From positions 378,734 to 442,733 of the forward strand of contig NZ_FOJW01000001.1 in assembly GCF_900112045.1 (NCBI RefSeq): a stretch of DNA of 64,000 bases. Direction: 5' to 3'. The position numbers and the translations under genes were made by a program. This stretch comes from Lentibacillus halodurans. GTDB taxonomy: Bacteria; Bacillota; Bacilli; Bacillales; Amphibacillaceae. The notes beneath the pieces were generated by a model, which saw nothing but the letters and a program-made list of their open reading frames with translations, did no database searches and was not told the origin of the DNA. This document shows positions 4,327 to 15,977 of this stretch, one piece after another (the first letter of the stretch is position 1; every line of letters begins with the position of its first letter).

Positions 4327-7044
4327 CTATTGCGGAATACGATTTGCGGAATTCAGTTTATTGCGCAATACCATTTGCAGAATCCCACCATGACGATAGT
4401 AATCAACTTCAACATCACTATCAAACCGTGCGATAACGTTAAACTCTATTTTATTGCCTTCTTCATCAACAGCTGTGACTTTAACACGGTCATGCGGTTT
4501 AACATTTTCATCAATTTCAACATGGTATGTTTCTTCACCTGTTAAACCTAGCTTATCGGCACTCTCACCTTGTTCAAACTGTAATGGCAGTACACCCATC
4601 ATAACAAGGTTGGAACGGTGAATCCGTTCGAAGCTTTCCGCAATGACTGTCTTGATGCCGAGCAAGTTTGTCCCTTTCGCTGCCCAGTCACGTGATGAGC
4701 CCATTCCGTAATCTTTACCACCAATAACGAGCAATCCGGTATCATTTTCCTGATATTTCATGGCTGCATCGTAAAACGGCATGAGTTCACCAGTTGGCCA
4801 ATATGTGGTATAACCGCCCTCTTTGCCCTGTGCCAGCAAGTTACGGATTCGGATATTGGCAAATGTACCACGCATCATTACTTCATGGTTACCCCGGCGA
4901 GATCCATATGAGTTAAAGTTTCGCGGTGATACACCTTTTTCCTGCAGATACTGGCCAGCTGGCATATCTTTGGCAATTGCGCCTGCAGGAGAAATATGGT
5001 CGGTTGTTACCGAGTCGCCAAATTTGCCGATGACACGCAGATTGTTCAATGGATCAACTGTTCCTGCATCTTTTGACAATCCTTCAAAAAATGGCGGATT
5101 TTGAATATAAGTCGATTCACTGTCCCATTCGAATAAAGGTTCGTCAGTTGTTTTGATTTCATTCCATTTTTCATTGGAATTGAATACACTTTCATACTCT
5201 TTACGGAAAATCTCCGGTTTTACTACGCTTTGGACAGAGTTTTTAATTTCGTCCATTGATGGCCATATGTCTTCCAGATAAATTGGCTCGCCATCTGCAT
5301 CGGTCCCAAGCATTTCTTTTGTCAAATCGATATCCACAGTTCCCGCTAAGGCATATGCCACAACCAATGGAGGTGATGCCAAATAATTCGCTTTAACCAG
5401 CGGGTGAATACGGCCTTCAAAGTTACGGTTACCTGACAATACTGAAGAAACGGTTAAATCACTTTCCTCAATCGCCTTTTCAATTTCAGGTCTTAATGGC
5501 CCGGAATTTCCGATACATGTCGTACAACCGTAGCCGACAAGGTTGAAGCCAAGCTGGTTCAGGTAGTCCTGGAGACCGGAATCGTCCAGATAACGTGTAA
5601 CGACTTTCGATCCCGGTGCAAGCGAAGTTTTAACATATTCTGGTACTTTCAACCCTTTTTCCACAGCTTTTTTCGCAAGCAGTCCAGCACCAAGCATTAC
5701 ATATGGATTGGACGTATTGGTACAGGATGTAATCGCAGCAATCGCAAGTGCACCTGTTTTCATGACAGAGGTTTCACCATTTGGATGTTCGACCGTCGCT
5801 TCCTTGTCAAACTCGGATTCATCCATTCCGAAACCCTGATTGCCGGATGGCGCTGTGATGGCCTTATTGAATTCATGTTTCATATCGGACAAGGCTATTA
5901 AATCCTGTGGACGTTTTGGTCCTGACAAGTTTGGCTCAAGTTCCGATAAATTGATCTCCACAAGCTCGGTATATTCAGGGTCTTCCTGATCGGCTGAATA
6001 CCAGAGATCATTTTCTTTACAATACTTTTCCACTAGTGCAATCTGTTCTTCATTGCGACCGGTCAGACGAAGATAATTTAACGCTTCTTCATCAACAGGG
6101 AAGAAACCGCACGTTGCACCATATTCAGGCGCCATGTTGGAAATAGTGGCACGGTCGGCAAGCGGCATATCTTTCAGTCCAGGTCCAAAATACTCCACAA
6201 ACTTTCCGACAACATTTTTCTCACGCAGAACCTGTGTCACTTTTAGTGCCAGATCTGTTGCGGTCGTTCCTTGCGGGAAGCTGCCGGTAAATTTAACACC
6301 AATCACTTCCGGTGCAGGGAAATAGGATGGCTGGCCAAGCATGCCTGCTTCAGCTTCAATGCCGCCAACACCCCAGCCAAGAACGCCTAATCCATTAATC
6401 ATCGTTGTATGTGAGTCTGTACCAACCAACGTATCCGGAAATGCGTCATATGTGCCGTCTTCATTTTCGATGCCATGAACAACATTCGCGATATATTCCA
6501 GGTTTACCTGGTGTACAATTCCTGTTGCAGGCGGTACGGCACGATAATTTTCAAATGCTTTCTGTGCCCAATGCAAAAATTCATAACGCTCCATATTCCG
6601 TTCAAATTCAAGCTCCATGTTTGCTTTTAGCGCATTTGCTGTGCCATACTGATCCACCTGTACTGAGTGGTCAATAACCAAGTCAACCGGTACTTCCGGA
6701 TTAATTTTATCCGGTTCTCCGCCCATATCGACCATCGCTTTTCTTAATGACGCAAGATCAACGACAGCTGGTACTCCAGTGAAATCCTGAAGAATGACCC
6801 GGGATGGCTTGAAAGGTACATCAACATGGTTTGCATCATTTTTTCCCCATTTGGACAGACCCTCCACATGTTCATCCTTTATGACGTGACCATCCTGCTG
6901 GCGTATGAGTGATTCCAGCAGAACACGAACAGAAAAAGGCAGCCGGGAAATTTTCCCTAAGTTGGCATTTTCAATTGCTTTTAATTGGTAAAAGTTATAC
7001 GTTTTGCCATTCAAATCAAACTTTTTTTTCGCATCAATTCCCAT
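4327..7044 (-). CDS. citB: Aconitate hydratase (aconitase A)
   Basis: Interconverts citrate and isocitrate in the TCA cycle; cytosolic [4Fe-4S] enzyme of the AcnA/IRP type and, in B. subtilis, also an iron-responsive RNA-binding protein. Cluster ligands are visible in TSCTNTSNP and [14 protein letters not shown]. The C-terminal swivel domain includes [16 protein letters not shown]. Length 905 matches the family. A strong SD (GGGAGGAG) precedes the ATG. Monocistronic with its own terminator; a CcpC-type dyad lies upstream. Confidence 0.97.
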
Positions 7045-14116: not shown

Positions 14117-14350
14117 CTAATGTTTTTTATTTCTATTCTGTAAATCGCGCACTTTTTGGGGTGTGACGTCATTTCCCGCGGGATCCTTTACAGTCATTGA
14201 CTTAAATTGATTTTTAAAAGATTTGCGTACATTTTGCAAATATTCTTCTCTGAGTTTCTTTTGTTCGGTTTTCTCTTCCTCTGTCAATCCTTCATTTTTT
14301 GATTTTTTGGCCAGCTGATTTATCCGATCAAGTTTATCTTTTGATATCAT
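14117..14350 (-). CDS. ynzC: DUF896 protein YnzC
   Basis: Small, highly charged helical protein of the UPF0291 family ([19 protein letters not shown], then [10 protein letters not shown]). In B. subtilis it is the last gene of the SOS-controlled yneA-yneB-ynzC operon. Here a terminator-like hairpin separates it from yneB, so SOS read-through may be partial. Length 77 normal. Confidence 0.9.
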
Positions 14351-14434: not shown

Positions 14435-15085
<651 letters not shown>

Positions 15086-15090
15086 TTACA

Positions 15091-15189
15091 TTATGCACTT
15101 GTAATCATAGAAAAATATAAAAATATCAATGCTGCTGCAAAAGTTGCCAAATAGAATAGATCTGTTTTCGTCATTTTTTCAAACATCAT
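15091..15189 (-). CDS. 32-residue membrane peptide in place of YneA
   Basis: ATG with AAAGGA seven bases upstream, 32 codons and TAA. The product starts MMFEKMTKTDLFYLATF and is one hydrophobic helix (about residues 11-29) with a short positive N-terminus, so N-in is expected. It occupies the position of yneA, the SOS division inhibitor, which in B. subtilis has an N-terminal helix plus a LysM domain (about 105 residues). Here only the helix exists. It is behind a LexA-type promoter and ahead of yneB. Whether it still inhibits division is unknown. Confidence 0.75.
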   Translation of the reverse strand: MMFEKMTKTDLFYLATFAAALIFLYFSMITSA

Positions 15190-15215
15190 GAATCAGTCCT
15201 TTCTAACATTTAACA

Positions 15216-15317
15216 GGAACTTTTGTTCGCCTCTATGTATTATTATATACGAACAAATGATCCTGTCAACAGTTTTTCGAACGAATGTTTGTTTATTTTG
15301 ATCTTCCGTGATATACT
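15216..15317. promoter_or_regulatory. Divergent lexA / yneA-yneB promoters with LexA boxes
   Basis: Leftward promoter: TTGACA (15264-15269), 16 bases, TATAAT (15242-15247). Rightward lexA promoter: TTGTTT (15289-15294), 17 bases, TATACT (15312-15317). Three sites fit CGAAC-N4-GTTCG: CGAACGAATGTTTG at 15278-15291 overlapping the lexA -35, GGAACTTTTGTTCG at 15216-15229 downstream of the leftward start, and a half-good site at 15250-15263 between the leftward -35 and -10. B. subtilis also has several LexA sites in this interval. Confidence 0.85.
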
Positions 15318-15353
15318 AGCTTTAATAAATACTATGTGCGAGGTGTTTAATAG

Positions 15354-15977
15354 ATGACAAAACTCTCAAAACGACAGGATGCCATTCTTGACTATATTAA
15401 GGAACAGGTAAATGAAAAAGGATATCCGCCATCAGTCCGGGAAATTGCAGTAGCCGTCGGACTTGCATCCAGTTCAACCGTACATGGTCATCTGGCAAGA
15501 CTGGAAAGTAAAGGATTCATCAGACGAGATCCTACAAAGCCAAGGGCGATAGAGGTGCTGGAGCAAACAGAAGAAAACCATATACCACGGGAAGAGCCAC
15601 GATATGCACCGGTAATAGGAAAAGTAACAGCTGGTCTCCCCATTACCGCAGTGGAAAACATTGAAGAATTTGTTCCATTGCCGGGCTCTGTTACAGGAAC
15701 TGATGAAAATCTGTTTGTACTTGTCATTGAAGGTGAAAGTATGATTGAAGCAGGTATATTGGATGGCGATATGGTCATCGTTAAACAGCAAAACACGGCA
15801 CAAAATGGTGATATCGTTGTAGGCATGACCGATGAGGATGAAGCCACTGTTAAACGATTTTTTAAAGAAAAAGATCATATCCGGCTGCAGCCGGAAAATG
15901 CAACCATGGAACCGCTCATTTATCAGAACGTAACCATTTTAGGCAAAGTTATCGGCCTATACCGCAACATTGACTAA
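15354..15977 (+). CDS. lexA: SOS repressor LexA
   Basis: Represses SOS genes and self-cleaves on RecA filament contact. N-terminal winged HTH ([20 protein letters not shown]), cleavage site Ala93-Gly94 in VTAGLP, catalytic dyad Ser129 (GESM) and Lys167 (ATVKRF). Length 207, against 205 in B. subtilis. SD GAGGTG. Divergent from the yneA-like operon and autoregulated through the box over its -35. Confidence 0.97.

Follow-up and report, generated by a model that had tools for sequence, protein, structure and literature searches.

Can an SOS division brake do without the domain that is said to do the braking? According to PMC13396833, the membrane helix of Bacillus subtilis YneA brings the protein to transmembrane helix 7 (TM7) of the septal synthase FtsW, and its LysM domain then blocks septal synthesis. 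In Lentibacillus halodurans, the position beside lexA that YneA occupies in B. subtilis holds a gene for little more than a single membrane helix. We analysed this locus within a stretch of 64,000 nucleotides (the window; contig NZ_FOJW01000001.1, positions 378,734 to 442,733) and compared it with the corresponding loci of its family, order and class. The peptide is probably an SOS division brake reduced to its membrane anchor, because relatives keep a division-stopping protein three times larger in the same slot.

A short membrane gene between lexA and yneB

The interval between lexA and yneB contains a short open reading frame behind a full-consensus promoter and three LexA-box-like sites (Table 1). 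The first-pass annotation had reported a 32-residue membrane peptide here, and this description stood; a 31-residue form is as likely, because the second methionine is the start in most homologues. Locally, lexA diverges from peptide–yneB–ynzC–tkt (tkt named by eye from the sequence), a layout that matches the B. subtilis order, with lexA diverging from yneA–yneB–ynzC–tkt. By its position and the predicted LexA boxes, the peptide is placed under putative LexA control.

Table 1. Features of the lexA–yneB locus in window coordinates, with helix relatives from prophage-like regions in the last row.
Feature	Position	Strand	Details
Helix-only SOS peptide gene	15091..15189	(-)	ATG start, TAA stop, 32 aa, MMFEKMTKTDLFYLATFAAALIFLYFSMITSA; or 31 aa from 15186
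Ribosome-binding site	15197..15202	(-)	AAAGGA; 7 or 10 nt upstream of start
Sigma-A promoter of peptide operon	15242..15269	(-)	TTGACA-16-TATAAT; 12/12 consensus matches
LexA box 1	15216..15229		GGAACTTTTGTTCG; directly downstream of promoter; 1 mismatch to CGAACN4GTTCG
LexA box 2	15250..15263		CGAACAAATGATCC; within promoter spacer; 2 mismatches to CGAACN4GTTCG
LexA box 3	15278..15291		CGAACGAATGTTTG; lexA side; 1 mismatch to CGAACN4GTTCG
lexA	15354..15977	(+)	Divergent SOS repressor; TIGR00498, E 1.5e-73
yneB	14435..15073	(-)	Resolvase-like, next gene on the peptide's strand; NF049883, E 1.4e-106
ynzC-like gene (DUF896)	14117..14350	(-)	Third in presumed operon; PF05979, E 3.1e-30
Prophage helix relatives	L147 3225-3314; L149, L150, L151, L152, L155, L156 near 5000		Match orientation for the positions near 5000

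AlphaFold2 predicted one helix over residues 7–30 (31-residue numbering; mean pLDDT 90.4), and the charged N-terminus ahead of the membrane stretch suggests an N-in, C-out topology. By hydrophobicity, the chain ends 2 residues past its most hydrophobic 17-residue stretch. No LysM match was found in the peptide with the Pfam and NCBIfam models, and across both collections, the YneA model NF010723 included, no family was matched at E ≤ 10.

Searches of the whole genome with LysM models and NF010723 recognised no LysM-type YneA elsewhere. All 14 LysM hits fall within frames of at least 269 residues, and the best NF010723 match (E 7.1e-7) is at the level of a generic LysM stretch. The cut-off of this model is 60 bits: listed matches with E near 1e-8, none of them from this genome, score below 38 bits, and the LysM-type proteins of genomes G226 and G617 reach 87.2 and 82.9 bits. 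Across the family, 9 of 159 genomes exceeded the cut-off; among the matches listed, one row did so, a 653-residue frame containing multiple LysM units. Every listed NF010723 hit falls within a frame of at least 167 residues. LexA-box candidates in the L. halodurans genome numbered 34, against 104 for a reversed control pattern, and the list is therefore noisy.

Conservation and selection

The peptide stands at the same spot, with 30 or 31 residues, in all 30 family lexA loci that we read, comprising our genome and its 29 closest lexA matches; as the best lexA matches, these are therefore the closest relatives of the genome. Every locus has a box at each of the three LexA-box places, and the intervals from lexA to the peptide together contain 90 core boxes (GAACN4GTTC with no more than 1 mismatch), whereas base shuffles give 1.1. 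An alignment of 28 of the 30 family peptides shows no variation at nine residues: M1, F2, D9, F11, Y12, F16, L20, L23 and Y24. Among the 22 of 30 sequences that have 31 codons, pN/pS is 0.27 in frame, and the two alternative frames give 1.19 and 1.23; on this measure, the peptide gene is under purifying selection. A chance open reading frame is ruled out by the conservation in 30 of 30 loci, the excess of boxes over shuffles and the pN/pS of 0.27, and we take the window peptide, judged on these comparisons, to be a real gene.

We then searched 159 family genomes with a profile of the peptide and compared the matches with lexA coordinates, which were listed for 150 of them (9 further genomes were not placed). 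In 133 of these 150, a match lies on the strand opposite to lexA and 148–223 nt away from it, a count that includes a frameshifted remnant in G070; two additional intact copies, in G026 and G029, were recovered by open reading frame, and an intact peptide adjoins lexA in 134 of the 150 genomes. The remainder consists of two genomes with copies elsewhere (G019, 1384 nt off; G156, on another contig), the frameshifted one and 13 in which the peptide was not found, among them G061, where the contig end is too close to tell. The two checks on the gene named in the first-pass annotation, conservation in relatives and a search for a separate yneA, thus both came out in its favour.

The peptide gene nevertheless seems dispensable, since a helix frame beside lexA was not recognised in 12 family genomes. 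At loci L130, L133, L137, L196, L197 and L232, yneB adjoins lexA across a gap of 136–199 nt in which no membrane gene was recognised; there, the inhibitor has apparently been lost and the operon retained.

One public record, titled Roseburia sp. 1XD42-34 (L263), contains the peptide gene of Bacillales; a mistaken title or contamination of the assembly is the probable cause.

What occupies the slot in related families

The order sample contains 116 non-family genomes, of which we read 106 upstream of lexA. By automatic labelling, which picked the wrong frame for G083, a genome whose right peptide is among those of the 30 family loci, the slot holds a LysM-type YneA in 72 genomes, a LysM-less frame with a tail in 12, a short helix protein in 12 and none of these in 10. 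Short helix proteins occur in families f60, f64, f82 and f85, with more divergent ones in f88 and f9. LysM-less tailed helix proteins, in frames of 58–115 residues, occur in f9, f11, f63, f73 and f84. Over the 159 classified loci, 53 of them from the family, the median gap between lexA and yneB, where a yneB was present, is 494 nt with LysM, 378 nt with a tail, 282 nt with the helix and 192 nt with none. Both forms meet within family f63, where G617 retains LysM and G553, G584 and G641 carry a similar helix without it.

The tailed LysM-less proteins in YneA's slot have a SosA-like layout. They were seen at L164, L188, L202 and L227 (f11), L160, L167 and L192 (f63), L203 and L215 (f73), L226 (f84), and L214 and L224 (f9).

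We placed these states on a LexA+YneB tree of 128 rows (the 106 non-family genomes and 22 of the 53 family loci, with no outgroups of other orders). A branch supported at an SH-aLRT of 96 has 29 of the 31 helix rows on the same side; G578 and G376 stand elsewhere. No fewer than 7 changes are required to explain where LysM is present or absent in the tree. In other orders, 19 of 40 loci have a LysM YneA-like frame beside lexA, as judged by eye and with L300, where LysM is doubtful, left out. Given the tree and these out-of-order loci, the LysM form is by parsimony most simply ancestral, pointing to loss rather than gain of the domain. More than one loss is suggested, because tailed LysM-less proteins are scattered over the tree.

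The helix itself has a narrow distribution. A profile built from 18 helices matched in 38 of 299 genomes of the order, and all of these belong to f1, f60, f64, f82 and f85 except G579, whose match is weak and has an internal stop. When the family profile was searched against 398 genomes of the class, every match below E 1e-6 was in f1.

Relationship of the helix to YneA

To compare the helix with YneA directly, we aligned the two profiles with hhalign, using 72 LysM rows and 47 of the 51 helix rows, after excluding f9 and f88 and after motif and duplicate filters had removed a further two. They aligned over 26 columns without a gap, with a probability of 76.7 and a score of 20.4. None of 150 full column permutations scored as high (at most 16.1); under a strict permutation of the membrane columns only, 10 of 300 did (at most 27.1). 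Profile similarity by itself is only suggestive of homology, and the remainder of the case for descent comes from position and the graded losses.

Five residues of B. subtilis YneA, K5, E6, F10, V11 and F14, are described as critical for localisation and toxicity in PMC13396833. By spacing, they fall on helix columns 7, 8, 12, 13 and 16, a correspondence made through the B. subtilis-like relatives L184 and L216 in place of the B. subtilis YneA sequence itself. On this correspondence through relatives, four of the five targeting residues are matched in kind: column 7 is Lys in 40 of 47 rows, column 12 is Tyr or Phe in all 47, column 13 is mostly hydrophobic and column 16 is Phe in all 47. E6 is unmatched, column 8 being mostly Thr. 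Columns 9, 20, 22 and 24 are nearly invariant (46–47 of 47) in helix-only proteins but not in LysM-type YneA. The signal for a conserved helix face is weak (p 0.04 for columns 9–28 and 0.06 for columns 10–25).

These comparisons also bear on whether YneA's promoter and operon slot were instead taken over by a small membrane peptide of unrelated origin, acting independently on division or on some other membrane process. Such a replacement would agree with the lack of a YneA or Pfam match, with a profile match that is only suggestive (10 of 300 strict permutations) and with the invariant or nearly invariant D9, L20, F22 and Y24, which have no counterpart in LysM-type YneA. It sits poorly with an ungapped alignment of 26 columns that shares the same aromatic anchors, with graded LysM-less forms in related families and with a LysM-bearing sister in f63, and we consider it unlikely. 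Descent of the window peptide from YneA is the likely origin.

Related helices on mobile elements

Helix matches away from lexA were read at ten places in nine genomes (G125 4178003 and G057 C12 were left out). Seven lie in early regions that look prophage-like by eye (L147, L149, L150, L151, L152, L155 and L156), and PHROGs confirmed nearby integrase, primase, RecE-like, SbcC-like or replication genes for L147, L149, L150, L155 and L156. The prophage helix genes adjoin repressor-like genes and stand ahead of replication or anti-repressor genes. A similar helix is encoded on the viral contig L281 (831-917), between a small helix-turn-helix gene (Cro-like, by eye) and an anti-repressor.

Within 300 nt upstream, no core LexA box (at most 1 mismatch) was found for any of the 10 genome-locus copies or for the L281 copy; the nearest core site to a mobile copy is 395 nt away. 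The prophage copies thus seem not to be under LexA. We infer that phages took the helix gene from their hosts.

Three further relatives lie outside clear prophages, at L148 4908-5087, L154 4968-5084 and L153 4935-5078 (match orientation), in surroundings judged by eye to be plasmid- or element-like, with resolvase- and IS-like genes, or close to a flagellar-hook-like gene. A tblastn search of deposited phages with the L147 prophage copy gave no match, and neither did one of plasmids with a consensus-like helix. No PHROG family was assigned to the helices, the best match among the eight tried having an E of 0.012.

Proposed function

The precedents on how much of such a protein is needed point in different directions. 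Deprived of LysM, B. subtilis YneA (YneA-TM) still localises and binds FtsW but does not inhibit (PMC13396833). SosA of Staphylococcus aureus with a major C-terminal truncation is inactive, its extracellular part being needed (PMC6851548). SidA has 29 residues, is SOS-induced and acts on FtsW (PMC4211646). This lineage must differ from B. subtilis, since B. subtilis YneA is inactive without LysM. The helix-only YneA of the first-pass annotation accordingly holds in part: position, regulation and the clade-wise swap with LysM-type YneA speak for it, whereas the ungapped profile match is only suggestive and the helix without LysM does not inhibit in B. subtilis (PMC13396833).

On balance, we favour, with reasonable though not strong confidence, the view that the peptide is a YneA remnant which lost LysM in the ancestor of the family's clade, docks on FtsW and slows septal wall synthesis. 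The LysM domain would have been lost from YneA in the ancestor from which a clade of related families descends, leaving a helix of 27–31 residues still expressed from the LexA-controlled promoter between lexA and yneB. After DNA damage had removed LexA, the peptide would be inserted N-in/C-out and would dock on the septal synthase FtsW (at TM7 in B. subtilis) via the residues that YneA's helix uses for the divisome. The helix alone would then slow septal wall synthesis, the part most likely responsible being its outer half, where L20, F22 and Y24 have newly become invariant. This conserved outer half may take over the work of LysM, and the peptide would be SidA-like while keeping the docking surface of YneA. 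For the window peptide, both division arrest and FtsW as the target are inferred.

A bolder version, which we hold tentatively and with somewhat more doubt than belief, is that in this clade a bare helix of 27–31 residues may be a complete SOS division inhibitor, an outer-half contact with FtsW replacing LysM, and that prophages of the same hosts may have captured it as an early division brake of their own.

The behaviour of YneA-TM, which localises and binds FtsW without inhibiting (PMC13396833), would equally suit a helix that docks on the divisome and is not inhibitory alone, either needing a separate LysM or wall-binding partner or tuning FtsW. Other LysM proteins are present in the genome, but a second YneA-like LysM protein was not recognised among them; an SOS-induced partner may still exist among the noisy LexA-box candidates, yet we regard a docking-only role as improbable.

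Peptides of comparable size and SOS control are known that act on the membrane itself: TisB and DinQ of Escherichia coli are small, SOS-induced single-helix peptides, toxins under antisense RNA control. A peptide of this type would lower the proton-motive force and bring about dormancy with no specific division block. The antisense RNA of TisB and DinQ has no detected equivalent at the window peptide, and no antitoxin RNA is known here, because no described RNA family in Rfam came near its gathering score in 14800-15450, around the gene; an RNA of a kind not yet described may be present. The window peptide, moreover, sits in YneA's operon slot and has nearly invariant polar and aromatic positions, unlike a generic hydrophobic helix; we give a membrane-perturbing toxin little credence.

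That the frame is spurious, or a decaying and functionless YneA fragment, has a negligible chance of being right: the gene is very short and one family copy (G070) is frameshifted, but conservation contradicts it, with a pN/pS of 0.27, 30 homologues all of 30 or 31 codons, retained promoter boxes and intact copies in 134 of 150 genomes.

We also asked whether FtsW co-varies with the form of its presumed partner. In B. subtilis numbering, inferred from G172 (Val 204, Pro 206), position 204 is Ala in 12 of 16 helix-type versus 1 of 13 LysM-type genomes, and Pro206 is present in 10 of 16 versus 12 of 13. Most LysM-type genomes have a longer loop after TM7 than the helix-type genomes do. FtsW matches without the extra length also occur in the LysM-type genomes G557, G570, G580 and G617, and the extra length is found in two tail genomes of f73. 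Co-variation as support for an FtsW target was rejected, the differences following phylogeny rather than LysM loss; because phylogeny explains the distribution, they are not counted as evidence.

At the FtsW loci L376, L379 and L386-L397, the residue is mostly Ala where B. subtilis has V204, and the loop after TM7 is short.

Discussion

The window peptide resembles B. subtilis YneA (NF010723) in its slot between lexA and yneB, its predicted LexA control and its single N-terminal helix, which aligns ungapped and, by spacing through relatives, may include counterparts in kind of most divisome-targeting residues. It differs in having no LysM, almost no extracellular tail and no match to the YneA model, whereas B. 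subtilis YneA requires LysM to inhibit.

In size (SidA has 29 residues), SOS control (here read from LexA boxes), single helix (here predicted) and FtsW as the proposed target, the peptide is also like SidA of Caulobacter crescentus. SidA belongs to another phylum and no descent is claimed; its predicted binding site, moreover, is on the opposite face of FtsW TM7 (PMC13396833). SosA of S. aureus (77 residues) is likewise encoded by a LexA-controlled gene adjoining lexA, with one helix and no LysM. Its extracellular C-terminal part is required for activity and turnover (PMC6851548), and the window peptide has no such part. We found no report of a helix-only YneA in the literature on YneA and SOS division inhibition, as covered by titles and abstract openings and including few subscription papers.

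A clade that keeps the helix and its SOS control but not LysM amounts to a natural deletion experiment on YneA. Either the helix suffices to stop FtsW, or the YneA model is incomplete. If the peptide does inhibit FtsW, its 31 residues would offer a simple means of studying how septal synthase activity is turned off, and the existence of prophage copies suggests that this point is exploited by phages as well.
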